This document shows positions 7,748-58,942 of a stretch of 64,000 bases of DNA, in pieces (within the stretch, counting starts at the first letter, position 1; each line of letters starts with the position of its first letter). Where the stretch lies: positions 39,869 through 103,868 of the IMG/VR virus record IMGVR_UViG_3300008050_000024; one strand, given 5' to 3'. Below the pieces are notes generated by a model. It was not told where the DNA came from. It was given only the letters and a program-made list of their open reading frames with translations, and searched no databases. This stretch comes from a virus. The translations under genes and the position numbers were made by a program.

Positions 7748-9353
7748 ATCGGAACGAGCACAGGCACAGAGGGACAGGATCAAACAAGATGCTGTTGCCT
7801 CTCAATCAAAAGGAGCGGATTACTTAGGAAATTCCAAGTTTCCTATAAAGACGCTCAACCTCAAAACAGGCACCCATTTTTTGGATTTCATGCCCTATGA
7901 TGTTACTATGGAGGGATCTCCTCACAAGGTAATACCGGGCGACATTTGGTACAGGAGGAGTATCCTACTTCACCGAAACATCGGTTCAGAAAACATCAAA
8001 CTGGTTTGTCCCAAAACCTTTGGGAAAGATAAACCCTGCCCCATTTGTGCCCATCGTAACTATCTACAAGGGCTCGGAGATCCTTCCATGGACGCTCTTA
8101 TCAGCTCGATTAAGCACCATGAACGTACTTTGTTTAATGTGGTGGATCTTAATAATTCGTCCGTGGGTACTCAAATACTGGATGCCGGGGATTTCCTGTT
8201 TACTAACTTAATGATGAAGGAAGTTAATGAGAATGATGATTTCCTCTACTTCACTGAGTTGGAGGGTGGGTATCAAGTCAAAATCCGAATGGATGAGAGT
8301 AGTTTCCAGGGACGCAGTTTTCCAAAGGCTGGTCGATTCGATTTCATACCCAGGGATTACACGTACCCAGAAGCCGCTATGCAGGCTGTTCATGATTTGG
8401 ATGCCATCATCATCGTGCAACCCTATGAAGAAATCAAAGAGTTGTTTTTTGAAGGAGAAGAGCCTCCTGTTGCTGGGGCAACCACTGTTTCTGTTCCTGG
8501 TGCCGTAGCCGGCGCAGCTCCCGCTGCTAATTCTGTTGCGAGTTTTATGCCAGCCGGTGCTGTTCCTTCAGGGACTGCTCCAGGTGCTGCCGCTGTTAGT
8601 CCTCCAGCTTTAGCCACAACGCAACCCGCCGCTCCTCCCGCATCAGTACCAGCGGCGCAACAAGCCGCACCGGGACCAGTAGCTCAACAAGCAGTACCGG
8701 CGCCAGCAGCTCAACAGGCCGCCGCTCCTGCGCCGGCTACTCCTGGAGTAATAACAAGAGACCCCATGCCAGAACAAAAGGCGAATGAGGCTCCCACGCA
8801 AACAGCTCCTCTAGCCACGGCACCTCAACGCACAAACCCTCCCGGGACTGTAGCTGCTCAAGCCCCTCCCGCTGCTCCTCCTGCTGGGATACAGAGAAGT
8901 GCCCCTGCCGGAGCGGCAATCACTCAACCTACCGAAATACCAACTCCCCCAAAAAAGGCGCCTCCTGGTCCTACCGGATATGAGCCTTGTATTGCCTGCC
9001 AAGAAACAGGCGTACCCTCAAATGGAATTGGTGACTGTTTCCCTTGCAAAGGATTTGGTTGGTTGACTGTGCAGGCCCCCCCTGCACAGCAACCACCCGC
9101 CCAGCCTCCTGCGGTTTCCCCTCAAGCTGTTGCACCCCCAGCAGCGACTCCCCCGCAGGAGGCTCCAGTAAATCAAGTTCCCGCCCCAGCAGCACAAGTG
9201 CCCGTGCAACAACAGGCCGCTACTCCGGGAGGAACGTGTCCAGATCCCGCTGGTACCTTTGGTGTTTCTACAAACGACATTCCCGCCTGTACAGCCTGCC
9301 CCTTATGGGAAGCTTGTGCGGATCGTAAGTTCGGAGACACCGTCCCATTCTAG
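7740..9353 (+). CDS. Single-stranded DNA-binding protein (T4 gp32-like) with long Pro/Ala-rich tail
   Basis: A 537-residue protein. The first 230 residues look like a gp32-type core: a basic N terminus (NRSERAQAQRDRIKQ) and a zinc-site candidate, CPKTFGKDKPCPICAHR. A proline/alanine/glutamine-rich linker follows, interrupted near 415-437 by CIACQE...CFPC and ending with CTACPLWEAC in the last 40 residues. Typical gp32 is about 300 residues with a short acidic tail, so two extra cysteine clusters on a disordered linker are unusual. Start ATG 7740 has GGAGGG (7729-7734) upstream. The expected role is coating single strands during replication and recombination. Confidence 0.7.
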   Translation: MNRSERAQAQRDRIKQDAVASQSKGADYLGNSKFPIKTLNLKTGTHFLDFMPYDVTMEGSPHKVIPGDIWYRRSILLHRNIGSENIKLVCPKTFGKDKPCPICAHRNYLQGLGDPSMDALISSIKHHERTLFNVVDLNNSSVGTQILDAGDFLFTNLMMKEVNENDDFLYFTELEGGYQVKIRMDESSFQGRSFPKAGRFDFIPRDYTYPEAAMQAVHDLDAIIIVQPYEEIKELFFEGEEPPVAGATTVSVPGAVAGAAPAANSVASFMPAGAVPSGTAPGAAAVSPPALATTQPAAPPASVPAAQQAAPGPVAQQAVPAPAAQQAAAPAPATPGVITRDPMPEQKANEAPTQTAPLATAPQRTNPPGTVAAQAPPAAPPAGIQRSAPAGAAITQPTEIPTPPKKAPPGPTGYEPCIACQETGVPSNGIGDCFPCKGFGWLTVQAPPAQQPPAQPPAVSPQAVAPPAATPPQEAPVNQVPAPAAQVPVQQQAATPGGTCPDPAGTFGVSTNDIPACTACPLWEACADRKFGDTVPF

Positions 9354-19102: not shown

Positions 19103-21142
19103 ATGATAAACGACACACCTTGGTTATCGTTCAAACTCGACGATAGCTTTATCGCACAGTATACAGACATAAATCCCGATCTGGGATTTGACGGGCTTGG
19201 CGCTTTTGTTTTTGCCCGGACCTACAGCAGATTAAAAGAAGACGGATCCAAGGAGTCGTTTGTCGATGTAATCCGAAGATGCGCGGAAGGAAGCTACTCC
19301 CTCCAAAAAGACCACATCATAAGCAACTGCTTAGGGTGGAACGAGGAAAAAGCACAGTTGAGTGCCCAGGTCATGTTTGATCATATGTACAATTTACGAT
19401 TCCTGCCAGCAGGAAGAGGGTTGTGGATGATGGGAACTGAGTACGCACATACTCGGAATCCTATGGGGCTATTCAACTGTGCTTTTGTCTCTACCGAAGA
19501 AATTGAGATTGAATCAATCCGCCCATTCACTTTCCTGATGGATGTGTCGATGGTCGGCGTTGGTTGTGGGTTTGATACAAAAGGTGCAAACAAAATGAAA
19601 ATGCACAAAGTGCAGAAGGACACTCCTCGAGGCACTTTTGTAATACCCGATTGCCGGGAAGGGTGGATTGATTCTTTAGCGCTTACAATGCGCCCCTATT
19701 TCACGGGCAATGATGCCACTTATGCTTTCGACTATTCTAAAATAAGAAAGAAAGGAGAGCTTATTAAAGGGTTTGGCGGGATTGCTGGAGGGCACGAACC
19801 CTTAGAACAAATGCACAAGGACATTAAGGAGGTATTAGATCGCCGTAGCCTGTCCGAAAATCCACTTTTAACTTCCCGGGACATCGTAGACATCATGAAT
19901 ATGATAGGTTCCTGTGTAGTCGCCGGTTCAGTACGCAGAACAGCCGAGATTGCTATCGGGGATCCCGACGATGAAGTTTTCCTAAATCTCAAAAATTATG
20001 ACATAAACCCTGATCGCCAAAACTACGGTCGATTCAGCAATAATTCCGTGTTTTCCACAGTCGGCATGAATTACTCGAAACTCGTCCCACGTACACTGGT
20101 CAACGGGGAACCGGGATACATTTGGTTAGACAACGTGCAGGCCTACGGTCGAATGTGTGATCCTCCGGACTACCGAGATAGAAATGCCCGGGGTTGTAAT
20201 CCCTGCGGAGAGCAATCACTCGAAAGCTGGGAAGTATGCAACCTTGTAGAAATCTTCCCACCAAATGTAGAGGATGAAGAGACGTTCATCGATGTTATCA
20301 AATATGCCTATCTTTACGGGAAGACAGTAACCCTGACCAAAACGCACATAGAGGAGACCAACCGAGTCCAGCACAAGAACAGAAGGATCGGTGTAGGCTT
20401 ATCTGGCTTAGCTATTTTCCGAGAACAGCACGGCATCGACGCTATGGTACATTGGATGACCCGAGGCTACGGACGCATTAAGTATTATGATGACGTATAT
20501 TCCAAATGGCTCGGGATCCCCTCATCCATAAAAACAACAACGATCAAGCCCTCTGGAACTGTGTCACTGGTTGCCGGCGTATCCGCAGGGATACACTACC
20601 CTCTATCCCCCTTTTACACAAAAAATATCCGGATGTCCGATAACAACCCTTTGACACAATGGGCTAAGGATAGTGGCTTTAAAATTGAACCCGAGATCAC
20701 ACATGAGCAAAACGAAGAAGGAGATTGGGTCCCTACAGGGAAAAGCAAAGATACCGTAGTTATTTCTTTTCCTGTTAAGATGCCCAATACAAAAAACATG
20801 AGAGGACGTGGTGAAGTTTCAGTATGGGAACAATTCAAATTGGTTGACCTCGCCCAACGCTATTGGAGTGATAATCAAGTCTCCTGTACAGTGTCCTTCC
20901 TAGACTCCGAAGAAGACGATGTTTTGCGAGCCCTGGAAATGTATGATCGAGACTTAAAGACAATCAGCTTTCTACGGTTTGATGCCGGGATATCTCCACA
21001 AATGCCGGAACAAGGGATATCCGAACAAGAGTACGATACAATGATTAAAGATATCACCCTTAGACCCCTGTATGATTATGAACTAAAAGATGCAGAAGGC
21101 GAATTGGGATGCACTAAAGACACCTGCTCTTTGGATAACTAG
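19103..21142 (+). CDS. nrdJ: Adenosylcobalamin-dependent (class II) ribonucleotide reductase
   Basis: A 679-residue enzyme that makes deoxyribonucleotides using B12 to form the radical, so it works with or without oxygen. It carries GLFNCAF (first redox cysteine), RGCNPCGEQSLES...CNLVEIFP (thiyl-radical cysteine and redox partner), KPSGTVSLVAGVSAGIHY, and a C-terminal CTKDTC pair that reloads the active site. Length and motif order resemble the monomeric RTPR of Lactobacillus leichmannii, slightly shorter. The dUTPase and thyX genes in the same block extend the pathway to dTTP. The start is ATG 19103 with AAAGGAC upstream. Confidence 0.92.
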   Translation: MINDTPWLSFKLDDSFIAQYTDINPDLGFDGLGAFVFARTYSRLKEDGSKESFVDVIRRCAEGSYSLQKDHIISNCLGWNEEKAQLSAQVMFDHMYNLRFLPAGRGLWMMGTEYAHTRNPMGLFNCAFVSTEEIEIESIRPFTFLMDVSMVGVGCGFDTKGANKMKMHKVQKDTPRGTFVIPDCREGWIDSLALTMRPYFTGNDATYAFDYSKIRKKGELIKGFGGIAGGHEPLEQMHKDIKEVLDRRSLSENPLLTSRDIVDIMNMIGSCVVAGSVRRTAEIAIGDPDDEVFLNLKNYDINPDRQNYGRFSNNSVFSTVGMNYSKLVPRTLVNGEPGYIWLDNVQAYGRMCDPPDYRDRNARGCNPCGEQSLESWEVCNLVEIFPPNVEDEETFIDVIKYAYLYGKTVTLTKTHIEETNRVQHKNRRIGVGLSGLAIFREQHGIDAMVHWMTRGYGRIKYYDDVYSKWLGIPSSIKTTTIKPSGTVSLVAGVSAGIHYPLSPFYTKNIRMSDNNPLTQWAKDSGFKIEPEITHEQNEEGDWVPTGKSKDTVVISFPVKMPNTKNMRGRGEVSVWEQFKLVDLAQRYWSDNQVSCTVSFLDSEEDDVLRALEMYDRDLKTISFLRFDAGISPQMPEQGISEQEYDTMIKDITLRPLYDYELKDAEGELGCTKDTCSLDN

Positions 21143-28394: not shown

Positions 28395-28868
28395 CTATTT
28401 GACGAGGGAGTATATTTTGGCACCGGCGAGCAGGCCAAGTGCTTTTCCGATATTGTCGAAGATTCTGTTTCGGTGTGCTCTTGCAAGTTCCCGTTTGCCT
28501 GCGGCCACTTCGTTCTCTGTAAGCTTGACTCTTTCTTTCCAGAAGGCGATTTTTTCTTCGAACAACGCTTTTCGTTCTTCTTCGATGGCGAGTCGTTCTT
28601 GCCATTGTTCGAGAAGTTTGTTCTGCGTATTTTTAAGGACTTTGATGACATCGGTTAGCTCTTCAGTTTTATGGACAAGTCCGAGTTTCTCCGCTTTTAA
28701 TGCTACATCTTCGGCAACATGAGTTTGGAAATTTTCTTCAGTTAAGTACACACCGGGAGACAGTGTAACCTCTGCTCCCTTGACTACGGCTTTAAAGGGT
28801 TCTTGTATCCGCTGAAACTTGACAGAATGACAAGTATAAACGAAAATGATAAATAAAATGAGTCTCAT
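28395..28868 (-). CDS. Exported coiled-coil protein, possible outer spanin-like partner
   Basis: A 157-residue protein with a hydrophobic signal-like N terminus (MRLILFIIFVYTC) ending in a cysteine at a near-lipobox position, although Tyr-Thr before Cys is not ideal. The middle is helical and coiled-coil (residues 60-130), and the C terminus is mildly hydrophobic. It overlaps the upstream membrane-anchored coiled-coil gene by ATGA. Two adjacent exported coiled-coil proteins, one membrane-anchored and one possibly lipidated, resemble Rz/Rz1 spanins. It is longer than most outer spanins, so a virion role is the alternative. Confidence 0.55.
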   Translation of the reverse strand: MRLILFIIFVYTCHSVKFQRIQEPFKAVVKGAEVTLSPGVYLTEENFQTHVAEDVALKAEKLGLVHKTEELTDVIKVLKNTQNKLLEQWQERLAIEEERKALFEEKIAFWKERVKLTENEVAAGKRELARAHRNRIFDNIGKALGLLAGAKIYSLVK

Positions 28869-29239
28869 GCTTCTTCAAACCCTGCCATCTCTTCGGCCTT
28901 AGCCGTATTACCTTCTGCCAATGCTTTTTCTACAACAGCAATGGCTTCCTCTAATTGATCATCTTTGATTTTGGTTCTCTTTTTGATTTCTTCTAAAGCT
29001 GTCTTCTGATCTTCCAGGGCATCATCCCATTTCATTTTATTGGCTACTTCTTTGACTTCTATTTTTGCAGCCTCAATGTCCTTTTTGTAGATGTCCTCTA
29101 GATTCTTTTTCTTTGCCTTCCGTATCTGTTCCACGACTTTAGAGTAGTCGCCTCCCAAGTATCTACGAACAAAAAGAAAAGCCAGAATAGCCACAAGAGC
29201 GTATCCGGCATACACCATATATTCTTTGAATTTATTCAT
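28865..29239 (-). CDS. Membrane-anchored coiled-coil protein, possible inner spanin
   Basis: A 124-residue protein with one N-terminal transmembrane segment (YAGYALVAILAFLFVRRYL) followed by about 90 residues of highly charged coiled coil. That is the layout of an inner-membrane spanin (Rz-like), which fuses inner and outer membranes at lysis. The next gene is a second exported coiled-coil protein with ATGA overlap. Sequence alone cannot separate this from other tail-fibre-associated membrane proteins. Confidence 0.55.
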   Translation of the reverse strand: MNKFKEYMVYAGYALVAILAFLFVRRYLGGDYSKVVEQIRKAKKKNLEDIYKKDIEAAKIEVKEVANKMKWDDALEDQKTALEEIKKRTKIKDDQLEEAIAVVEKALAEGNTAKAEEMAGFEEA

Positions 29240-30173: not shown

Positions 30174-30566
30174 TCACTTTAATCGTTCGTCGGTTCCAAC
30201 TAATCGTCCAAAATTGGGCTTAGCCATCCGTCGCTGTATCCCTACAAAAAGCTTACCTTTGTTTTTTTCAAAATACACACGACGTTCGTAGCAATCTCTC
30301 GTTGTATGGATTTGACCGGCGTCATCTTTTACTTTTCGAAAAGACTTAAATTGACGGTAGGTCCAACAAGTGACGGCAACCCCGGGCCCTAGGTGTTTCT
30401 CAAGATTAACTTTTTGCTTTTTTTCCAAAATAAGTAACCGCCCAGGTTCCATTTTTTCGCCATTGTTATACCTGTCTTTAGTATTAGAGTGTTTGAACTT
30501 CTTCTTAGAAAAACGAAAATCTAAATACGAAAAAAGTTCTTGTATTGTTTTTGCTTTTCTAGCCAT
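30174..30566 (-). CDS. Hypothetical basic protein
   Basis: A 130-residue lysine/arginine-rich protein, not recognised. Its ATG overlaps the stop of the large glycine-rich protein upstream as TAATG, so the two are coupled. Such small genes directly behind phage adhesin genes are sometimes adhesin chaperones; here that is only a positional guess. Confidence 0.55.
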   Translation of the reverse strand: MARKAKTIQELFSYLDFRFSKKKFKHSNTKDRYNNGEKMEPGRLLILEKKQKVNLEKHLGPGVAVTCWTYRQFKSFRKVKDDAGQIHTTRDCYERRVYFEKNKGKLFVGIQRRMAKPNFGRLVGTDERLK

Positions 30567-32056
30567 TATACAAACCTGTTAAGAAACTTCTTAGCTTCAT
30601 CTCCAGTGACAATAATGTACTTTCCTGTAATGGTTCCGGAGTATGAATTGGTGTTTGAGATCATGACAACCAACCCTGCAGCGCCTCCGCCATTGCCACC
30701 GTGCCCACCGTCTCCTCCGGCAGAGGAGTTTGGATCGTTTCCACTTACGCCAGTACCACCAGCACCGCCGTTCCCTGCACCTAGTCCAGATACAAAGGCT
30801 GTTATTCCTGCAGCTCCTGTTCCGGCAGTTCCGTCAGTTCCGTTAGCCGTGGCGGGATCGTCGGGAGCGCCATCAGGTGTTCGTGTTTTTCCTGCGGCTC
30901 CTGTTCCCCCTCCACCGCCTCCCTGTCCTCCAGGTAGTCCAGCATAGGGAGAGCTAGAAGAGAGATGGTACCAATAACTAGAACCATTAGCACCATTGCC
31001 CCCATTACCAGAAGCACCGTCAGTGACATAGCCACCGCCCCCACCCCCACCAGAACCAAACCCACCGCCGTTACCGCCGTTACCAGCTTCTGTTTTAGCT
31101 GCGCCACCGCCGCCTCCTCCACCGCCTCCTCCGGATCCAGCAGATCCAGCAGAAGTACCAGTTCCCGCAGTAGCCGACGATCCTGATGGGATTATTTGTG
31201 GGGGTAGGTATACTCGGTCAATTCGTGTAAGGAGTAAAAGAGCATCGCCCGCTCCTCCATTTTTTCCTATAGTAGGGGAATCGGGAGGGGGACCAACATC
31301 GGCCCCGGCATTGTCTAAAGAACCGCCTCCACCACCTAACCAGGAATTAGATTGACCGCCTCGGCCGACCCCGGATACAGAGGCTACTTCGGAGTATAAT
31401 CCGTTTCCTCCGTGCCCCCCTCCATTGGGTGATACCTTATCGGCGCCACCGCCTCCGCCACAACCAGGAATGCCGCAGTGTCCACCAGGCTCGCCGCTGT
31501 AGCCAGTCCCACCGGCATTTGCTGCAGCACTGGAACCACCGACGCCACCAGATACGTCAATATTTCCAGATCCACCAATGTCTCCTTCGGATACTAATAC
31601 AATCAGACCGCCTCCACCCCCGCCTGATGTAGTGTTTTCAGCCACACCAACAGCAGAGAGGTTGCCTATTACTGATATATTTCCTTTGGATAGTATTTGT
31701 GTCCAGCCACCGGAAGAGGCTTGAGAATTGCCTCCCTCTCGCTCTAATGGAGGAATAAATTTAGTTCCTAGCGTATCATACACAATTCCTAGAGGAGGTC
31801 CGGGATGACCGTAGAACTGTGTGACAACTCGGGCAATGCCCGCCTGTTGTCCTACCGTTAAATTATGGGAGATGGTTACTGCGCCCGTGGCTCGGTATAT
31901 TTTGCCTGAATTAACAGAATTATTGCCGTCTGTCGCAAGCGTAGTGGCTTCCAGGTCAGTATTACCAAAACCCGCCGTAATGGCGCCATCGGATTCATCG
32001 CCGTATATTCCTAGGGAGGGAGTATTATTTAATTTTGCAGATTTTAATTTTGACAT
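30566..32056 (-). CDS. Glycine-rich tail adhesin-like protein, copy 2
   Basis: A 496-residue protein. The first 110 residues form a globular domain (MSKLKSAKLNNTPSLGIYGD...), followed by a segment TSGGGGGGLIVLV and then about 300 residues in which short glycine runs alternate with loops. This resembles the polyglycine-II helix sandwiches of T-even adhesins such as gp38 of Salmonella phage S16, which bind the host receptor. It is a paralogue of the gene just upstream (32065-33504), with the same N terminus and block order. It lies at the end of the tail-fibre genes, where receptor-binding tips are expected. Confidence 0.65.
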   Translation of the reverse strand: MSKLKSAKLNNTPSLGIYGDESDGAITAGFGNTDLEATTLATDGNNSVNSGKIYRATGAVTISHNLTVGQQAGIARVVTQFYGHPGPPLGIVYDTLGTKFIPPLEREGGNSQASSGGWTQILSKGNISVIGNLSAVGVAENTTSGGGGGGLIVLVSEGDIGGSGNIDVSGGVGGSSAAANAGGTGYSGEPGGHCGIPGCGGGGGADKVSPNGGGHGGNGLYSEVASVSGVGRGGQSNSWLGGGGGSLDNAGADVGPPPDSPTIGKNGGAGDALLLLTRIDRVYLPPQIIPSGSSATAGTGTSAGSAGSGGGGGGGGGGAAKTEAGNGGNGGGFGSGGGGGGGYVTDGASGNGGNGANGSSYWYHLSSSSPYAGLPGGQGGGGGGTGAAGKTRTPDGAPDDPATANGTDGTAGTGAAGITAFVSGLGAGNGGAGGTGVSGNDPNSSAGGDGGHGGNGGGAAGLVVMISNTNSYSGTITGKYIIVTGDEAKKFLNRFV

Positions 32057-32064
32057 GAAAACCC

Positions 32065-33504
32065 TTAAATGAATTGAGAAAGTATCTTTTTGGGATCGTC
32101 CCCGGTAAGAATGATGTATCGACCTACAACAGATCCAAGAAAAGAGTTAGTTTGAGAAATGAAAACAACCAACCCGGCTGCTCCTCCACCGTTTCCTCCG
32201 TCGCCTCCCTGTCCTCCAGCGCCTCCAGATCCGTTTGATCCAGTTTTACCAACACCGCCAGATCCAGCACCTACACCGGCTACAAAAGGAGTAATTCCAG
32301 CAGCTCCAGTACCACCATTTCCGGGTGTGCCGTTGGTGAGGCCACCATTATATTCATTGCCCATACAGGCACCGCCACCACCTCCGCCCCCTTGACCGCC
32401 AGGAAGTCCAGCATAAATGGATTTGGAAGAGAGTGAGTATAAGCCTGTATCTCCAATCCCGCCGTCACCGCCATCTCCGGAAGTTCCGCCACCAACTTCA
32501 TATCCAGAACCACCGCCACCCCCAGAACCAGCTTGTCCACCGTCACCTCCGTCGTTAGCAGATGATGTTTCCCAATGAGCTCCACCTCCGCCTCCGCCAT
32601 GTGCTCCCCCCGCTCCACCGTTAGTGCCTGCTCCAGCTGCTCCAGATGAGTTAGTGCCCCGAACAGGACCAAAAGTAAACAATTGTTCAGTTGGTGCGTA
32701 ATTGGAAAGATAGGAATCTCCCGCTCCTCCCGCTCCTCCATTACTAGCATCTGAATCTATACCGGCGTTATCTAAGGATCCTCCCCCACCTGCTGACTCA
32801 GTTCCCGCTTGAAGCATTGTACCACCAGCAGTACCGTTTAAAAGGCCGCTCCCCGCTGCTCCAGCTCCTGCAGTGCCGTTTATATTAGAACCTTCGCCTC
32901 CCCCTGAACCCCCAAAGCCTGCGTGTCCTCCGGGCTCATTACTATAGCCTCCAGCACCGCCATTTGCGGCTCCTGTGGCGCCTCCAGTACCTCCAGACAC
33001 ATCTACAGTGCCGGTTCCAGAAATATCTCCATTAGCGACGATAATAATAAGTCCGCCACCCCCGCCACCAGATGTAGCACTTCCAGCTACTCCTACCGCG
33101 GATATATCTCCCACGATGGAGATGTCTCCTCCGGATATGATCTGTACTGTACCTCCACAGGAAGTCGTTGATCCACCGCCTTCACGCATGGGAGCTGGTA
33201 ACGATTTAGTACCAACAGCTCGGGTTATACTCCCCAAGTCAATGCCGTGTCCTCCCAAATACGAAGGAAAGCCGGACCGAGGAAGGCCGACTTGTTTGCC
33301 TATGGCTAAATCGTGGTCTATTACAATATCACCTGAGGCCCGGTAGATGTAGTCAGTATTGACTGAATCATTAGCGTCTGTTCCGATTGTAGTTGCATTT
33401 AGATCCGCATTCCCAAAACCAGTAGAAACTGCCCCATCCGATTCATCTCCGTAGGCTCCCGCAGATGGAGTGTTATCTAGTTTTGCGTGTTTTAATTTTG
33501 ACAT
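32065..33504 (-). CDS. Glycine-rich tail adhesin-like protein, copy 1
   Basis: A 479-residue paralogue of the next gene. The N terminus MSKLKHAKLDNTPSAGAYGD and the block TSGGGGGGLIIIV are shared, and the glycine-run region has different loop sequences. Such repeated glycine-rich tips with variable loops fit a receptor-binding adhesin of the polyglycine-II type. Ribosome binding site GGTGGAGG lies before the ATG at 33504. A strong terminator lies just upstream, so it needs its own promoter or read-through. Confidence 0.65.
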   Translation of the reverse strand: MSKLKHAKLDNTPSAGAYGDESDGAVSTGFGNADLNATTIGTDANDSVNTDYIYRASGDIVIDHDLAIGKQVGLPRSGFPSYLGGHGIDLGSITRAVGTKSLPAPMREGGGSTTSCGGTVQIISGGDISIVGDISAVGVAGSATSGGGGGGLIIIVANGDISGTGTVDVSGGTGGATGAANGGAGGYSNEPGGHAGFGGSGGGEGSNINGTAGAGAAGSGLLNGTAGGTMLQAGTESAGGGGSLDNAGIDSDASNGGAGGAGDSYLSNYAPTEQLFTFGPVRGTNSSGAAGAGTNGGAGGAHGGGGGGAHWETSSANDGGDGGQAGSGGGGGSGYEVGGGTSGDGGDGGIGDTGLYSLSSKSIYAGLPGGQGGGGGGGACMGNEYNGGLTNGTPGNGGTGAAGITPFVAGVGAGSGGVGKTGSNGSGGAGGQGGDGGNGGGAAGLVVFISQTNSFLGSVVGRYIILTGDDPKKILSQFI

Positions 33505-38900: not shown

Positions 38901-40718
38901 TTACAAAAATTCAAAAAGCTTATTACTTACATATATATTATTATACCCAGTATACATATTTTCAAAAGGATTTCCATTAGGTGTAGGATTACCACTCGGA
39001 AGTCCTACAGGATCGATATGATATACACTAGCCTTGACCGCGGCTGCCCAAATATTAATATTCGAATCCTCCCGAGGAAACTCTAAAATACCCGTAATAT
39101 CTGTTTCTACCCAAAAACCATTGCTGCCCAAAGCAGAAAAATCAAAAGAAGTAGTAGAAGTCAAAGGAAGGTACACACCATGTCCTGAAAGAAAAACTTC
39201 AGGCAAACTATTAGGAAATCCTGTAGGTGTGGTAGCTAGCGAGTTTTCATGGTTGATTATATGCACCCTTGCCTTCGAAACATTGGCACCGCCACCATCC
39301 ATCCAGTACTGACCTAAAACAACAATAGTTGCTCGAACCGTACGATGGGACGTTCGAGGATGGGTATGGAGGTTATAGTAAGATAGAGCTTCATGCATGT
39401 ATGTGATATATAAATCAATTACAAAGCTCTTGGCACGCGGCGTCACCCCTGTTTCAATCTTAAAAATATCAACAGGAGGGGCATCTACCACAGGAGGAGT
39501 CATGCCACTAACATAGTGTGAAAACATCTTATGATGCCCCATCATACTCATTCCCGCCACAGGAATCGCACCAGTTATCATCCCCAACATTGGAGGCCCC
39601 GTAATATTATCCCGATGAATACTATTACTAGCAGGAATTATAGGGGGTACAGTATTTGGGTAAACGTGAGTCGAATATCCACCTGGGTAATCACGATTAG
39701 ACACGGCATAATCGGTATATCGATTATAATAATCGTCATGTACGTGGACGGGCACTCCTAGCTCGAACGTGCCATCTGTTTTGGTACGAACACCTTGACC
39801 AGACGCATACGAAGTATCCTGAAAAAACCACCATTCACCTACGTTGGTTCCTCCCGTTCTACCATCCCCATTAGAATGCGTGGCCAGTAACATATGACGC
39901 ACTTGAATAGGAGATGGAAAAACCTGCGATGCATCAATCGTTGGATCAATCGATGGATCACCCATAGGAATGTCATACAAAAAAATCCAATCCGATCCCG
40001 GAGGGTTGCCATCATTGGGGGGTGGCGTTGGATTTTCCTTAATCGAATAATACACTGCGGCCACTGATCCATCCGGATCGGTTTGATAATTATGCGGATA
40101 TATATGATGATCTAGCTGAAAACCAGTAAGAGTTACCACTCCCGAAAAATCCGCCTGTATCCAACCCCAATCATCATCGTCTGGAGCCCCTTGATTAGCT
40201 GACCATATTGTGTAAGCCGCAGCACCATATGTAAAACCATCAGACATCCTACCATCATTAACATCAGGGAAACCGGCTTCACTACTAGCAGAATATACAG
40301 CTGGAACAGTACTCGTCGCTGCTGACTGGGGGGCAGGAAGAGCGGGAACCGACGGACCAGAATTATTTACTTCCCATATGATAGGATCTTTGGATGTCAA
40401 TAAATATTGTTTCCAAACGCCCTCACCCGTATTCAGAACATGAACAAGGGTGTTGACTGTTAACGATGCTACAAGCGCATCCCGTTCTACAATTGTATTT
40501 ACCGTTACCAACGAACTTTTTGCGGCGATTTGTTCGTTGTTATGCTTGGTATTCCCCCACAAATCAAACAAGGAATGACAAATCGATGAGAATCCCAGAT
40601 CAGGCGTGTTATTGATAGCCGTCCGATTCGCAAAAATGGAAGTGGTTACTCGGGAACCGTGGGCAACTGCACCTTCTGTCGGATATGTAATTTGAAAATA
40701 ATCTTTAAAGTCGGTCAT
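38901..40718 (-). CDS. Tail fibre / receptor-binding protein with a discoidin-like domain
   Basis: A 605-residue protein. The N-terminal 100 residues resemble phage fibre attachment modules (VTVNTIVERDALVASL, then VHVLNTGEGVWKQYLL). Residues about 170-320 look like an F5/8 type C (discoidin) carbohydrate-binding fold: WGWIQADFSGVVTLTGFQLD near its start and VRHMLLATHSNGDGRTGG before its end. The C-terminal part is beta-rich with many His and Tyr. The likely role is host-surface glycan binding. It overlaps no neighbour but sits 1-12 bases from both. Confidence 0.65.
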   Translation of the reverse strand: MTDFKDYFQITYPTEGAVAHGSRVTTSIFANRTAINNTPDLGFSSICHSLFDLWGNTKHNNEQIAAKSSLVTVNTIVERDALVASLTVNTLVHVLNTGEGVWKQYLLTSKDPIIWEVNNSGPSVPALPAPQSAATSTVPAVYSASSEAGFPDVNDGRMSDGFTYGAAAYTIWSANQGAPDDDDWGWIQADFSGVVTLTGFQLDHHIYPHNYQTDPDGSVAAVYYSIKENPTPPPNDGNPPGSDWIFLYDIPMGDPSIDPTIDASQVFPSPIQVRHMLLATHSNGDGRTGGTNVGEWWFFQDTSYASGQGVRTKTDGTFELGVPVHVHDDYYNRYTDYAVSNRDYPGGYSTHVYPNTVPPIIPASNSIHRDNITGPPMLGMITGAIPVAGMSMMGHHKMFSHYVSGMTPPVVDAPPVDIFKIETGVTPRAKSFVIDLYITYMHEALSYYNLHTHPRTSHRTVRATIVVLGQYWMDGGGANVSKARVHIINHENSLATTPTGFPNSLPEVFLSGHGVYLPLTSTTSFDFSALGSNGFWVETDITGILEFPREDSNINIWAAAVKASVYHIDPVGLPSGNPTPNGNPFENMYTGYNNIYVSNKLFEFL

Positions 40719-41095: not shown

Positions 41096-41791
41096 CTATT
41101 CTCGTAACCAATCGGGACAGGGATCAAAGTCATCAGGAGTTTTATACGTTTTTATACCCTCATCCCCCCGGTATTCTTCTATCCGTCTTTCCTGTGCAAA
41201 TTTCATAACACAGTCAAATCGGCGTTGGGTATCCCGCACTCCTTCTGGTTTTGCGTACCAGGGTAGCGTTTTCTTAAACTCCATAAACTGGTGAATAGAA
41301 AAATGTTGAAGGGTTTCTAGCCAATCGTGGCAAGTCCCCTCTACACTGATGTGGAATTGGGTGTGGTAATCGAGTAAAAACAAAAGGTCTAGAGTACGTA
41401 ACTCTAAATGCCCTATGCCCGCCAGATCGTTGATCCGGTAGAGCCCTTTGTCAATGTAAGCCTGACTAGCCTCATCCATAATGCGAAAGGCTAAAGGCGT
41501 CGACATAATACTGTTGACTCGGGCGATAACGGGTAAAAGCTGTTCGTCGTCCCGTGGTAGATTATTGAGGAACTTAATGTCCTGCGGAGTAACGCCACAA
41601 TCCATAAGCATTTCCCGGCCTTGTCTGTTTTTCGAGATGTCAAATTGTACTCGACCAATGGACCAACCAGAATCTCCTATTTTTGCATGGTAGAGTCTGG
41701 TCCACTTTTCTCTGTTGTTTCCCGTTTCACTGAAAGTAACGGCCTCCAGGCATAGCTTTCTAAGGGTTTTTTCTATCTTTAGGTTTCCCAT
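41096..41791 (-). CDS. Putative muramidase (endolysin or tail lysozyme)
   Basis: A 231-residue protein. The N-terminal helix ends in FSETGN with a glutamate at position 22, followed 17 residues on by IGDSGWSIGRVQFD. A glutamate on a helix followed by a G-D-x-G-x-S-x-G-x-x-Q loop is the look of lysozyme/transglycosylase-fold muramidases. No signal peptide is visible. Its start has AGGAG and overlaps the upstream receiver-domain protein by 32 bases. It may be the endolysin or a virion lysozyme, because it follows the baseplate genes. The fold call is by eye only. Confidence 0.5.
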   Translation of the reverse strand: MGNLKIEKTLRKLCLEAVTFSETGNNREKWTRLYHAKIGDSGWSIGRVQFDISKNRQGREMLMDCGVTPQDIKFLNNLPRDDEQLLPVIARVNSIMSTPLAFRIMDEASQAYIDKGLYRINDLAGIGHLELRTLDLLFLLDYHTQFHISVEGTCHDWLETLQHFSIHQFMEFKKTLPWYAKPEGVRDTQRRFDCVMKFAQERRIEEYRGDEGIKTYKTPDDFDPCPDWLRE

Positions 41792-42710
41792 TGGTTTGCT
41801 CCTGTTTTTGCGTATCTACACTGTTTACCGCCTCGGCAAGAAGAGGCAGGCCTTTCCATAAAAGAATTGATGTTATGAAACAAATCAAAAAAGCAATTAC
41901 AGTAAAGGACTTCCAAGTCAATTTAGCCAAAACCTCAACAAGCCAGAGAAGAACTTTTAACTTCTTCTCCTCGCCCATTGCATGTAATTCGTTAAATCGA
42001 CTTTCTGTTTCTGTTATATTCGGCTGAAGCTCGTCTGTTTTCTTTGTTGTACACAAAGCCGGATCTAATGGACATGCTTCTAGTCGTTTATCCATAAGCA
42101 CAACCGACACTGATTCCATAATGCGTTCTACCGCATTATCTGACCAATCTTGAAGATCATCTTTCGTTACTATTTTTTCTGACATGCCCCGTATGCCTTT
42201 CTTTAAATCCTTTTGTTCATGCAGTACGTGTTCTAATTTGTTTTCTACCGCATTCCAACGGATAATCTTTTCTACATGACGAGCAAACTCACGAGCTTCT
42301 GTCCAGTTTCCAGGAGTCGGTTTACGAAAGATTCCCAAGTCATCGATTCCATGCGTACCGGTGATAGTCTCCGGGGCTATAGACATAATGAGAATGGGGC
42401 ACATGATGCAGGCTTTCCGTAAAGCAAAATAGACATCAACACCTTTCTCACCCCGGGCTAAATTTTGATCAATGATAATAGCATCGTAATTGTTCTCTTC
42501 ATCAATTTCTTTTAGCGCCTGCTTACCACTTAACCAAGGGGTAATATGAACGGTTCGCTGCAAGTGTTCTGATAGAGCGGCTCGAGTGTTATCTAATTCA
42601 AAATCACTATCATCAATAATCCCTATTCGATAAAGACCTGATTTGTGACGAGGCTCTTGCAAACAAATCGGTCCGCCTTTTACTTCTGGAGAAATAGCCA
42701 GTGCGCACAT
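41760..42710 (-). CDS. Receiver-domain (response-regulator-like) protein with C-terminal membrane anchor
   Basis: A 316-residue protein. Residues 27-150 form a CheY-like receiver domain with all key residues: the acidic pair D33-D34 (IGIIDDSD), the phospho-acceptor D81 (AIIIDQNLARG), S110 (LIMS) and K130-P131 (FRKP). A helical, coiled-coil-like linker follows (140-260), then one membrane segment (about 269-286, FTVIAFLICFITSILLW) and a 30-residue polar tail. No output DNA-binding domain is present. It lies between a baseplate-type gene and a putative muramidase, which it overlaps by 32 bases. The domain assignment is firm; the function is unknown. Confidence 0.8.
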   Translation of the reverse strand: MCALAISPEVKGGPICLQEPRHKSGLYRIGIIDDSDFELDNTRAALSEHLQRTVHITPWLSGKQALKEIDEENNYDAIIIDQNLARGEKGVDVYFALRKACIMCPILIMSIAPETITGTHGIDDLGIFRKPTPGNWTEAREFARHVEKIIRWNAVENKLEHVLHEQKDLKKGIRGMSEKIVTKDDLQDWSDNAVERIMESVSVVLMDKRLEACPLDPALCTTKKTDELQPNITETESRFNELHAMGEEKKLKVLLWLVEVLAKLTWKSFTVIAFLICFITSILLWKGLPLLAEAVNSVDTQKQEQTNGKPKDRKNP

Positions 42711-42711
42711 A

Positions 42712-43191
42712 TTATGAAAATCCCAACGTAATAATCCAAACTACCCTGTATGATACCGTACTGTTTTTGGTTTGAGCAGGATAAGTTACTCGGGCCAACG
42801 TTCTTCGATGTGTTGCGTTTGTGCATAAAATGCATTCAGTTAATTCTGTAGTACCGGCGCCGTTTCCTTCGGCGTTTGCTAGAACTCCACTAATCTTGAA
42901 TTGACTAACTGTAGGGTTAGTGACAGAAATGCTATCTTTTAAAAAAACAAGATCATCCAATTCTGTATCAGTTTCTACTTCCGCCGTCGTCCCTTTACCA
43001 AAACCAAGGCAAGACACGATATGATCGGCAATATCGACAGGACCATGAATACAATGGACAAGGGATTCTAACAGCCCGTCCACTACGACATTATGATCAT
43101 CGACAACGCAAAACTCAGGGATTCCAACCGATTTTTTAAAAAGTTGAAAATGTCCTTTTCGAGAAATTCTTATTTTATCTTCAAATTCCAT
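42712..43191 (-). CDS. Putative tail/baseplate protein
   Basis: A 159-residue protein with a layout common to small phage tail proteins: HNVVVDGLLESLVHCI, then FGKGTTAEVETDTELDDLV, then TECILC and a final beta strand YRVVWIITLGF. Such proteins sit at the baseplate or fibre-attachment end of tail operons, as here after the gp6/J, I and gp53-like genes. Its stop is separated by one base from the next ATG (TAATATG). The family call is tentative. Confidence 0.55.
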   Translation of the reverse strand: MEFEDKIRISRKGHFQLFKKSVGIPEFCVVDDHNVVVDGLLESLVHCIHGPVDIADHIVSCLGFGKGTTAEVETDTELDDLVFLKDSISVTNPTVSQFKISGVLANAEGNGAGTTELTECILCTNATHRRTLARVTYPAQTKNSTVSYRVVWIITLGFS

Positions 43192-43200
43192 TTCATCCTT

Positions 43201-43536
43201 CTAGAATACATTTAACGTAGCGGAATGTTGAAACAAAAGAGCTTCCAGATTCTGCGCCGATGGATAGAATAGTTTATCGCCGGGCTCTAGGGAAAAAACA
43301 TCAAGAAGCCTGTTGTACTCTTGGACGATCCAGTACATCTCATCGTCCCCGTAGATGTCCTTAACAATAAGGTCAAAGGCGTGGCGGTTTGCCTCGGTAA
43401 CTTCGACGTGCCCCTGAGAGGGTAATGTCTTTAAATCTCGGACAAAAGGAGAATCTAAGGAATCAAAGTCCTTTATAGTGGCATTCCATTTGTAGAACCG
43501 GCCCCGGTCCCATTTTCGGGTAACTTTAGAAGCCAC
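43201..43536 (-). CDS. Baseplate wedge protein, gp53/LysM-like
   Basis: A 111-residue protein. FDLIVKDIYGDDEMYWIVQE is close to the IYG...YW pattern of T4 gp53. The following LLDVFSLEPGDKLFYPS resembles a LysM repeat end (peptidoglycan binding). GTG 43536 is preferred because it shares a base with the upstream stop (TAGTG) and AGGTGG precedes it; ATG 43569 would add 11 arginine/glycine residues without a ribosome binding site. It would join the baseplate wedge. Confidence 0.6.
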   Translation of the reverse strand: MASKVTRKWDRGRFYKWNATIKDFDSLDSPFVRDLKTLPSQGHVEVTEANRHAFDLIVKDIYGDDEMYWIVQEYNRLLDVFSLEPGDKLFYPSAQNLEALLFQHSATLNVF

Positions 43537-44567
43537 TATACCACCTGATCCTCGTCTGCGCCCCCCCATTTATGGAAGCCCATAATAAATGACCCCCATC
43601 GGGCTTCGGATGTTCTGTACATAGAAAAGTCATCGGATCGTGTGAGCGTCCTGGAATCGGAAAAGGTACGAGTAAAGATCCAGCGGTACACTTGTAGGTA
43701 CCAAGGAAACAGATACTCGCCTACGCTAGTCCAGCGAGCCTGTAGCACGCCTAAATCACCGTTAAATTCATCCGGATCTATATGGATATCGATAAACCCT
43801 CTTAGGCTTTCTACATCCCCTCCAGGCATTAAAGGTAAGAACGCTGCATCATACCAATTTACGATTTTTGTGCTTTCTGGTTTGAGATCGGTATTTATGG
43901 GAGCTCCTCCAGAATACAGCGCATACCAGAGCGCTAAATTCGTACCTCTAATCCGAAGAAAAGTTTTAATAGAGGCTACGATACCCCTTGTAATGTCATC
44001 TATGGCAGCATCGCCTTTTATAGCCGCTACCATATCTGCAATTCCGAGCTGCCCCATAAGTCGTTCTAGGGCGGGGTTTGTATCTTGGTCCCAGAATTTC
44101 AAGGCCTCTTGCAGTTTAGCCTCTCCATATTTTTCTAAAACGTACTGATGCGTTTCTAGGAGTTTGACATTAAGAGGGTACTTGAGCAACACGACCGGAA
44201 AATAATTCTTACCGTTAACAGCCAATAAACGAAGACCAAAAGCAGTAGCTATAATATTCGCCGGATTGTCCATCACTTCGTATTCCGGTGTCAACTGCGT
44301 ATCCCCTATTTTGACGACTAACAAAAGCGAGTCATTCTTAGTAATACGGATATCGACTGTTTTCTGATAAGTACCGTCTGTTGCTGCTCCTAGTCCTAAT
44401 TCGGTTAGAAGAGCTAAGCCTACGGCTGTGGTTAGATTGATCGTCGTTTTGTGCAAGTAAACACTTCGACAAGCCAACCGCAATTCTGTTTCAGAATCAG
44501 AGATGGTACAGGATAGCGTCTCTCCTAAGAATTTTTCAAAGGCATTTAGCCCTACAAGTGTCGCCAT
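43536..44567 (-). CDS. Baseplate protein in the gpI position (tentative)
   Basis: A 343-residue protein, not recognised by motif. The gene order spike, gp25-like, gp6/J-like, then this protein matches the V-W-J-I order of P2-type phages, so it may be the I-equivalent baseplate protein. It contains helical and beta regions and the segment PWYLQVYRWIFTRTF. It starts 1 base after the J-like stop. Confidence 0.5.
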   Translation of the reverse strand: MATLVGLNAFEKFLGETLSCTISDSETELRLACRSVYLHKTTINLTTAVGLALLTELGLGAATDGTYQKTVDIRITKNDSLLLVVKIGDTQLTPEYEVMDNPANIIATAFGLRLLAVNGKNYFPVVLLKYPLNVKLLETHQYVLEKYGEAKLQEALKFWDQDTNPALERLMGQLGIADMVAAIKGDAAIDDITRGIVASIKTFLRIRGTNLALWYALYSGGAPINTDLKPESTKIVNWYDAAFLPLMPGGDVESLRGFIDIHIDPDEFNGDLGVLQARWTSVGEYLFPWYLQVYRWIFTRTFSDSRTLTRSDDFSMYRTSEARWGSFIMGFHKWGGADEDQVV

Positions 44568-44568
44568 T

Positions 44569-46305
44569 TTATAAGTATCCCTTATTCAAGGGATCGCTGT
44601 CACCTTTGTATTCTAAGAGCATGGTAGCATCGGTGTAGAATGTGATGCTATCATTTCGCCTCTTAAAGTACTCACCAAAGGCCAATGTCTTATCCTCATA
44701 TGGGTAGTCGATGTACACCCGGGTCACGCCTGTTATGGCTAGTATCGTTTTGTGTAATGACCCTACGAAAAGACTTCCACCTAGTTTAAGGAAAATATCG
44801 TCAATGGCGGCCCGTATGGCTATTAGAATTGTAGCAGAAGCAGAAGAGGTTGTATGAATGACTGTCATACTAAAGTCTACTTCTTTTCGAGTAGGTGCCA
44901 TCAAATTATTTTTTGTAGCAGCCATTGCATGTTTTGCTACAAAGAACCCCTCAAAGGCCTCAGTTTCACTGCCCACACCAGTCGTCAATTGATGCTCAAC
45001 CCCTCCATCGTCCTCAGGATCCATTAAATAGACTATATCAAGTTCACACACCTTGCCCGGTGTTCGTCGTGTCTTAGTATCTTGGAATTGGGCAAATCGA
45101 GCTGTAATGACATCACAGTTCTTTAGAGTAACACCCTGTTTCTGTGAAGCCCAATGCCGGGGGGCCAGGGAAGCTACTTTCTTTGTGGCTTCTTGGTTTG
45201 TTCCCGTGGTAAGCATATCCCCAGCCGCAATGGGTTGGATGTTGGTTATTTTTGCCTGGCTTGATGTGAAGGAAGTGCTCAAGTCAATCACGTTTAGCAC
45301 TTGTCCCGGGGTAGCTAGCGCCTTTACTGTGACTATATGATTTTGTCCCGGTTTAGCCCCCAAGATGCCATCTCCGAATTGAAGACGTACGTCACCATCA
45401 AAATGCGTTGTGACGAGCACTGATGTAGGTGTGATCATTTCTTCAGTATCTTGTATGACTGTTTGAGCTGTTACTGTTGCCCCATCATCGATGTCAATAA
45501 ACACATACTTCAAATTGCCATTTGAATCGATGTCCGAGGAAATTTCAAAGTTAGTAGAATTGAGCAAGTACCATTCAAAATCAACAGAATTCAAAATTGT
45601 CTTGGTATAGGTTTTCCAAGTACCAAGTACGACCGTGACAGCTCGACCTAACGCAGCCAAAACTGACCCCGGGAGCAGCACTTCCGCCGTATCAAAGTCT
45701 TCGTTGATTTCGACCTTGTCAGCAGTAACCGAGAATACGGTATACGTAGCATCGTTTGCTAAAGTATTTGCCCCTGTCAGTTTAATTTCTTGATCAACAC
45801 TCACACCGGCAAAAGGCGAATTTACCAAGTCTTCAAAATAGGCTTTATTGCCTCCAGCAGCTTTTACTAGGTTGGTGTCGACTCCGACAGTCAACGCAGC
45901 ATTCGCTATTGCCTTTTTAATTAAAGTGTTATCATTTATCACAGAAACATCGTAGGTACTAAGCGTAGCTAGTATATCCGTACGATCTAATGTGACATCC
46001 TCAGACACATCCATTCTGATCGAGAATGAGGGGGCAGTTTTACGATGAGGCACATACCCTAAGGCTAAGGCTATCAGGTAGATGCTCGTCTGTAATTGGG
46101 CCTCTGTAATATAGCCTTCTCTTCGCATTGTATCGATACGAGTGTTATACATCGTACCAATACCCGCCATAAACTCCAACATCGTCTGACCTGTACTGGA
46201 TTCGAAAAAATCAATCCAAGAACGGTAATCGTCTAGACCTTGAAGATACGTTTGAAGATCTGCTAATACAGCATCGAAAGATAAGTAACTAGAATTCTGA
46301 ATCAT
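44569..46305 (-). CDS. Baseplate wedge protein, gp6/gpJ-like
   Basis: A 578-residue protein. Its N terminus, with WIDFFESSTGQTMLEFMAGI followed by TRIDTMRREGYITEAQL and LGYVPHRKTAP, is the typical start of gp6/J baseplate proteins, which form the inner ring that triggers sheath contraction. VRLQFGDGILGAKPG is a further conserved block (FGDG..G). It is positioned directly after the gp25-like gene, as expected. The start ATG 46305 lacks a clear ribosome binding site. Confidence 0.8.
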   Translation of the reverse strand: MIQNSSYLSFDAVLADLQTYLQGLDDYRSWIDFFESSTGQTMLEFMAGIGTMYNTRIDTMRREGYITEAQLQTSIYLIALALGYVPHRKTAPSFSIRMDVSEDVTLDRTDILATLSTYDVSVINDNTLIKKAIANAALTVGVDTNLVKAAGGNKAYFEDLVNSPFAGVSVDQEIKLTGANTLANDATYTVFSVTADKVEINEDFDTAEVLLPGSVLAALGRAVTVVLGTWKTYTKTILNSVDFEWYLLNSTNFEISSDIDSNGNLKYVFIDIDDGATVTAQTVIQDTEEMITPTSVLVTTHFDGDVRLQFGDGILGAKPGQNHIVTVKALATPGQVLNVIDLSTSFTSSQAKITNIQPIAAGDMLTTGTNQEATKKVASLAPRHWASQKQGVTLKNCDVITARFAQFQDTKTRRTPGKVCELDIVYLMDPEDDGGVEHQLTTGVGSETEAFEGFFVAKHAMAATKNNLMAPTRKEVDFSMTVIHTTSSASATILIAIRAAIDDIFLKLGGSLFVGSLHKTILAITGVTRVYIDYPYEDKTLAFGEYFKRRNDSITFYTDATMLLEYKGDSDPLNKGYL

Positions 46306-57030: not shown

Positions 57031-57558
57031 TTATGAAACCTTAATCACCCCACTCCTAATCAATTCCCGTACAACACCAAAAACATGCTTGCAGAAAGTA
57101 GGGACTTGTCTCGGATTCCTTATGTTAGGAGGGGGTTTGATTCTCGATTTTGGCTTGCCCAAGTGTGATCCATGTTTCCATAACACATGAGCTAGCCAAA
57201 AGTTGAACGCCGGACAGTCGCATTTAACTTCTACAGGTAAATTCGTTCTGAGTCTTTCTCCAGGCTTATTGCGCAATACGCGCATGCTTACCCTGTATTG
57301 GACATTTCTATTGATAGACCGTACTTGAAACCTAAACAGTACGAATCGATCTTTTAGATTAGGTTCTTTTAATTCCGTAATCTCATTCCGTGCTATGGGA
57401 ATGGATCGAGGGAATACAGTTTCGAAGTTATCAGCTAAAGATTTGAGTGATAACTTGGGACGCGGTTTGTCGTCATCTAAGACGTCACTCCCTGACTTAA
57501 CCTTGCCTTGCAGGTTAAGTAATCTAATAATGCGATCAACTTGAGATTCCTCTGCCAT
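57031..57558 (-). CDS. SWIM zinc-finger-like protein
   Basis: A 175-residue protein with the pattern C-x-C...C-x-H: VKCDCPAFNFWLAHV around residue 115 and FCKHVFGVVRELI around residue 158. This is the SWIM zinc-finger layout, with a 35-40 residue insert containing prolines. SWIM domains bind DNA or proteins. Finding one between the capsid and sheath genes is unusual; it may be a neck or DNA-retention protein, which is inference. Confidence 0.65.
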   Translation of the reverse strand: MAEESQVDRIIRLLNLQGKVKSGSDVLDDDKPRPKLSLKSLADNFETVFPRSIPIARNEITELKEPNLKDRFVLFRFQVRSINRNVQYRVSMRVLRNKPGERLRTNLPVEVKCDCPAFNFWLAHVLWKHGSHLGKPKSRIKPPPNIRNPRQVPTFCKHVFGVVRELIRSGVIKVS

Positions 57559-58287: not shown

Positions 58288-58824
58288 CTAGGCTAAATCA
58301 GTGTGCTCGGCTATCTCTTCCCGGGCTTTATCGTACTTTTCTTTACAGTCATTCAAAATGGATTCAGTGTCGATACTAATTTCTAGTTCTAACTGTCCCA
58401 GATTCAACACATTGTGAATAGCTTGTCCGTACTGACCAAACATTAAATCACTTAATGGTGTTGGTAGATCTGCGTGTGTTTTAAAATCGGCCAGTGTGGT
58501 TTTGGCGGACTGTATCTTGACTAAGAAACTGCCCGGATACATATCGGACAAAACGGGAGAATCGTAACAATATTCTTTATAGTAGTCTTCTCCGTCTTTA
58601 TCAAAAATCCAAATGATCTGGTCAGGGGCTTCTACCGCCGCAAAAGTATGAGACACGCCGGTCACTTCCAGTTCAATAGTCGTGCCCGTTCCACTTGACT
58701 TATTGTACCGGTTCCAGTAATTGAGGCTCTCTTGTATTATGCCGTCTATTTCGACAAGAGCCTCTTCTAAGTCCCGTACTCCTAGTCTAGAATTAAATAT
58801 TTTGATTAGTTCTTGTTTACGCAC
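58288..58824 (-). CDS. Head-completion/connector protein (tentative)
   Basis: A 178-residue protein with GTG start. The helical opening (KQELIKIFNSRLGVRDLEEA) and end resemble head-tail connector proteins in size and place, but no diagnostic motif is seen. It overlaps a small membrane protein gene by 8 bases and ends 9 bases before the next start. Confidence 0.5.
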   Translation of the reverse strand: MRKQELIKIFNSRLGVRDLEEALVEIDGIIQESLNYWNRYNKSSGTGTTIELEVTGVSHTFAAVEAPDQIIWIFDKDGEDYYKEYCYDSPVLSDMYPGSFLVKIQSAKTTLADFKTHADLPTPLSDLMFGQYGQAIHNVLNLGQLELEISIDTESILNDCKEKYDKAREEIAEHTDLA

Positions 58825-58942
58825 TGTTTACGCCCATCGATCGTACTATGAGATGCAAAAGACCCGAACAGACAAAGATGATCAAAATTGACGTAAAAAA
58901 GGAACGCCAGTCTTGATCACTATGTCTAGGATCAAAAGTCAT
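58817..58942 (-). CDS. Small membrane peptide of 41 residues
   Basis: A 41-residue frame beginning 6 bases after the upstream stop. It has a charged opening (MTFDPRHSDQDW) and one hydrophobic segment (SILIIFVCSGLLHLIV). It fills a gap between structural genes and overlaps the next start by 8 bases. The ribosome binding site is weak. It could be a small membrane or virion peptide. Confidence 0.5.
   Translation of the reverse strand: MTFDPRHSDQDWRSFFTSILIIFVCSGLLHLIVRSMGVNSA

Follow-up and report, generated by a model that had tools for sequence, protein, structure and literature searches.

Two overlapping genes of an uncultured tailed phage code for a probable receiver domain fixed to a C-terminal membrane span and for a predicted endolysin of an undescribed family. 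The window analyzed here is a stretch of 64,000 nucleotides, which corresponds to bases 39,869-103,868 of a 103,868-base record that may be incomplete. A role in lysis is favored for the receiver protein because of its position, the gene overlap, and its membrane span. We assign a probability of roughly 35% to the reading that it is a membrane protein of a lysis unit whose receiver modulates timing. If so, host signals could influence when the cell bursts through a receiver-anchor protein, of which this is a single example.

Both open reading frames are on the minus strand, and the features of the locus (window coordinates) are as follows.

43201-46305, minus strand: baseplate genes directly upstream of 42712-43191, including 43536-44567
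44569-46305, minus strand: large baseplate protein
43201-43569, minus strand: baseplate wedge (phrog_7145)
42712-43191, minus strand: upstream gene, 159 aa, phrog_5417, of unknown function
41760-42710, minus strand: receiver-membrane protein, 316 aa, with a probable receiver (residues ~27-135), helical linker (136-263), span (~266-289), and charged tail (290-316)
42321-42632, minus strand: probable receiver domain, about residues 27-130, from PF00072, a residue check, and alignment with eight bacterial receivers
41844-41915, minus strand: single membrane span, residues ~266-289, from hydropathy and charge distribution
41760-41791, minus strand: overlap of the receiver and endolysin genes, 32 bases, with the endolysin AGGAG just upstream, inside the receiver gene
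41096-41791, minus strand: predicted lysozyme-superfamily endolysin, 231 aa, from relatives, a 14-sequence alignment, an AlphaFold (AF2) model, Foldseek, and a holin neighbor in relative L008
40720-41040, minus strand: gene downstream of the endolysin, 106 aa, without a family in Pfam or PHROGs
38901-40718: tail-fibre-type gene on the downstream side

The genes are tightly spaced. The stop codon of 42712-43191 lies one base ahead of the receiver gene start, and the 32 bases shared by the receiver and endolysin genes agree with the overlap described in the first-pass annotation. A good ribosome site for the endolysin ATG (AGGAG, -6.6 kcal/mol with the anti-SD) is located within the receiver gene. 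The sheath, tube, and head genes are on the same strand, farther upstream than the baseplate genes.

The receiver domain and its membrane anchor

The 316-aa protein matches PF00072 with 29.5 bits (E 8.7e-7), which is just below the curated cut-off of 30.2, and a six-frame search gives 31.3 bits (E 1.5e-8), which is above it. The same six-frame search recovers one receiver only in the whole 103,868-base record. Judged by sequence, the match is not due to chance and the receiver is genuine. The first-pass annotation held that every receiver residue is kept. D33, D34, D81, S110, and K130 are all present, and the acidic pair D33/D34, the acceptor D81, and S110 are in register with eight bacterial receivers aligned by MAFFT. 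K130 is placed only by the motif GIFRKP, and the MAFFT alignment is shifted at the conserved Lys. It is likely that the full set of residues is retained, with the last of them resting on this motif.

The profile covers residues 30-117, and the HMM alignment ends at S110/I111, at profile position 84-85 of 111. The alpha4-beta5 region usually carries the phosphorylation switch of a receiver. The phage domain has a shortened version of this region, in which the switch aromatic would be displaced to K-2 (F128), with I127 at K-3. Because K130 is placed by motif and the switch region is shortened and shifted, we consider the domain a probable working receiver whose full completeness falls short of proof. 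With other PF00072 receivers the phage protein shares the two adjacent acidic residues, the acceptor Asp, the Ser, and a KP motif near beta5, but it differs from them in its shortened alpha4-beta5 region, its C-terminal anchor, its lack of a known output, and its location in a phage late operon.

The remainder of the protein contains one hydrophobic span (Kyte-Doolittle maximum 2.1) and, after it, a charged tail of 27 residues. Searches of Pfam, NCBIfam, and PHROGs reveal no output domain, DNA-binding or otherwise. Thus, both the single terminal membrane segment and the missing DNA-binding output proposed earlier are borne out. The C-terminal 171 residues have no match to a holin family in Pfam, and a single-sequence structure model of the whole protein (pLDDT 40) is too poor for use. 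Two further candidate features of this protein were rejected. A dual start, as in holin/antiholin genes, was considered, but the internal ATGs have weak ribosome sites and only TTG264 has a fair one. Kinship of the C-terminal half to small Cys-containing single-span proteins encoded upstream of the endolysin in two relatives (L007 and L012) amounts to a visual resemblance.

A phage-encoded two-component system would include a partner, either a histidine kinase or an Hpt protein, encoded by the phage itself. The 103,868-base, possibly incomplete, record has no match to the PF02518 kinase ATPase or to PF01627 (Hpt), and any phosphate for the receiver would therefore be derived from the host. Receiver-fold domains encoded by phages have precedent in the cREC domains of jumbo phages, which are described as associated with NAD+/ADP-ribose enzymes but in no case with histidine kinase systems (PMC7824862). 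The 316-aa protein differs from these in combining a PF00072 match with a membrane span and in being encoded next to an endolysin gene.

An undescribed family of predicted endolysins and its distribution

The 231-aa protein has no match to a Pfam or PHROG family. By iterated searches, relatives were recovered from 13 viral contigs as well as from a single metagenome bin of Deltaproteobacteria. Fourteen enzyme sequences were aligned, and a fifteenth member (L010, assuming a start at the ATG at 7905) was examined only by eye. Residues E22, S41, G42, S44, G46, Q49, and D51 are invariant among the 14, as are D141-Y-H, Q145-F, W178, D187, and R190-R191. The alignment and model place the predicted catalytic E22 at the end of a helix (8-23), followed by the hairpin S41-G-W-S-I-G-R-V-Q49 with a strand at 43-45. 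Members of the lysozyme superfamily have in common a helix Glu and, after it, a hairpin containing Gly and Gln (PMC2976769), and the 231-aa enzyme carries both elements.

An AF2 model built from the 14-sequence alignment (pLDDT 84.1, pTM 0.81) has the common fold of this superfamily (GH19/22/23/24/46), with modest Foldseek E-values of 0.009 or worse. Its best match is a GH46 chitosanase (6lwu_A, TM 0.56, E 0.009). After the GH46 chitosanases come pesticin and T4 lysozyme (TM, normalized by target length, up to 0.57), and the nearest viral model is a GH46 phage protein. The enzyme therefore resembles GH46 chitosanases and GH24 T4-type lysozymes in predicted fold and in its invariant helix-end Glu and Gly/Gln hairpin, but has no sequence match to any Pfam family.

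The gene neighborhoods of the relatives point to lysis. In 9 of 14 relative loci, a predicted membrane protein is encoded directly upstream or downstream of the enzyme, and a single-span protein gene is directly upstream in L007, L010, L012, and L016. In L008, the two genes after the enzyme are Holin_LLH (above cut-off) and Phage_holin_4_1 (PF05105, E 2.3e-35). Because holin and membrane-protein genes adjoin these copies, the most plausible function of the enzyme is that of an endolysin. The muramidase-like character noticed in the first pass thus gains from the alignment, the predicted fold, and the relative beside a PF05105 holin, and assignment as a muramidase-like endolysin, with peptidoglycan as its putative substrate, is well supported. 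The family is undescribed and represents new sequence space without a Pfam entry, with a predicted lysozyme-superfamily fold.

The family signature can be written as NELGG...SDPDG..GKSGWSFGxCQFD...DYHNQFYMS and is found in diverse phages (window 41096-41791, L003 7998-8684, and L004-L016). In both L011 and L015, the endolysin start shares 4 bases with a gene (7801-8013) whose 70-aa product has a motif of four cysteines.

The receiver does not share this distribution. The first-pass annotation had counted absence of the gene pair from all relatives against its proposal, and absence is largely what we observe. No receiver is encoded in any of the 13 viral records in which a related endolysin occurs (0/13); the Deltaproteobacteria bin has many, as expected. 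Searches with baseplate, sheath, and head proteins found a single sister contig with a largely co-linear gene order (L003/G001, 35.8 kb; identities of 43% for the sheath, 47% for the head protein, and 58% for a baseplate protein), along with two weak sheath relatives, both without receivers. The sister endolysin (46% identity) has no receiver beside it and is encoded next to a homolog of 57031-57558, upstream of the sheath gene rather than after the baseplate genes. The sister contig ends near a baseplate gene, and it is possible that a receiver gene lies beyond it.

Homologs of the 316-aa protein were likewise absent from the records of endolysin relatives, from plasmids, from 59 genomes of one bacterial phylum, and from INPHARED with either the whole protein or its C-terminal part as query. 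None was found in IMG/VR by a scan that needs short exact peptides, which distant relatives could escape. A generic receiver is matched by 232 deposited 'phage' records. However, many of the listed matches are short contigs that lack annotation or records that include ordinary regulators of the host (CheA, OmpR, RstA), and for this reason we did not use them to estimate frequency. We found no literature that joins phage lysis cassettes with receivers. By these sequence comparisons, the receiver-span architecture is unusual, a single example, and not a conserved module. Its absence in relatives argues against a conserved module but not against a function in this phage.

A possible role in lysis and competing explanations

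Beyond the receiver, the span, the overlap, and the endolysin, we infer each component of the following model. The two genes would form a small lysis unit of the late operon, with the endolysin as the downstream product. The 316-aa protein would replace the small single-span protein that precedes the endolysin in some relatives, with a host-type receiver added in front. In the predicted N-in/C-out topology, the C-terminal span would anchor a cytoplasmic receiver to the inner membrane. A host histidine kinase or a small phosphodonor might phosphorylate D81 and thereby alter self-association of the protein, which in turn might change the timing or efficiency of endolysin release. We consider it unlikely that host phosphorylation of D81 controls lysis such that timing is wired into the host phosphorelay.

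Phage lysis timing is set by holin accumulation and, in T4, also by superinfection sensing. The T4 proteins rI and rIII are antiholins that sense superinfection; they act by direct antiholin binding and have no phosphorylatable receiver. The phage receiver would be a second tie of lysis timing to cell state, and a true lysis model would establish a direct physical link from host two-component signaling to lysis timing that does not pass through transcription. The protein resembles class III single-span holins (T4 T) and single-span proteins of other lysis cassettes in having one span, in being encoded directly upstream of an endolysin with which its gene overlaps, and in its likely N-in orientation. 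It differs in lacking a holin-family match and in carrying a 260-residue cytoplasmic part with a receiver, and any holin activity is putative. The only other small proteins with a clear span among the late genes of the record are encoded by 28865-29239 (spanin-like) and by 58817-58942 (a 41-aa ORF).

Several observations favor the lysis model, including the significant receiver match with its acidic pair, acceptor Asp, and Ser, the one clear span with no other output domain, the 32-base overlap with its internal AGGAG, and the holins and membrane proteins that adjoin the endolysin family in relatives. Against it stand the single example, the lack of homologs and of receivers in the 13 viral records and beside the sister endolysin, the missing sequence relation to holin families, and the altered switch region. 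The last of these fits a pseudo-receiver, in which the fold would serve as an interaction or dimerization module of a lysis-operon membrane protein and would not be phosphorylated. The truncated Pfam match, the shortened alpha4-beta5 region, the imperfect alignment of K130, and a score close to the curated cut-off all agree with this explanation, but retention of the acidic pair, acceptor Asp, Ser, and KP dipeptide would be unexpected if catalysis had been lost, and we regard it as rather doubtful. The protein might instead be a membrane-tethered phosphate sink or decoy that drains host sensor kinases and damps an envelope-stress or other response, such that its endolysin neighborhood reflects late expression only. 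Some CheY-like proteins are known phosphate sinks, and a lone receiver without an output has the expected shape of one. Moreover, the tether would put the receiver beside sensor kinases, and no phage kinase is found in the record. If true, the protein would give the phage a compact means of counteracting envelope-stress signaling. However, host take-over genes are usually early, whereas this gene has a late position and is tightly packed with the endolysin in a structural/lysis operon, which leaves the sink doubtful.

The placement of the gene among tail genes also weighs against the lysis model and permits a virion role. Both genes lie between the baseplate genes (43201-46305) and the tail-fibre-type gene (38901-40718), as might be expected if the 316-aa protein is a virion or tail-assembly protein that acts with the lysozyme-like enzyme to help puncture the inner membrane as DNA enters. 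We find this improbable, given that the enzyme in relatives adjoins holins and membrane-protein genes and is not fused to tail proteins, that the sister enzyme gene is away from the baseplate block, and that a receiver has no obvious use in a virion. Still less probable is that the phage acquired a host gene segment only recently and joined it to one of its membrane proteins, so that the product would so far have little selected function, if any. The lack of homologs in any search and the absence of the gene beside the sister endolysin are in keeping with a recent arrival, but the protein has kept its active-site residues, its gene is closely flanked on both sides, and the G+C content of 0.41 is within the range of the neighboring genes (0.40-0.47).

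Other features of the window and sister contig

Where the late genes end, a minus-strand gene (28865-29239) codes for a 124-aa protein with an N-terminal span and a helical remainder, which weakly matches phrog_20026, an Rz-like spanin (E 0.0011). The gene overlaps another on the same strand (28395-28868), whose 157-aa product contains a Cys and has a hydrophobic, signal-like N-terminus. From sequence, these two genes may be a spanin pair, located about 12 kb away from the endolysin gene.

In the tail-fibre region, adjacent minus-strand genes (30566-32056 and 32065-33504) code for similar glycine-rich proteins of 496 and 479 aa that are apparently a tandem duplication. The large baseplate gene of sister contig L028 (663-2627) has an apparent internal repeat, wherein a segment matching residues 135-219 lies between those matching 2-435 and 438-578. 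This could be an artefact of assembly or a real duplication.

On the plus strand of the window, a gene at 3131-5857 encodes a 908-aa protein in which a uracil-DNA glycosylase domain (E 1.5e-17) is combined with a family A DNA polymerase (E 9.8e-41). Another plus-strand gene (19103-21142) encodes a B12-dependent (class II) ribonucleotide reductase with an alpha domain and an insertion domain.
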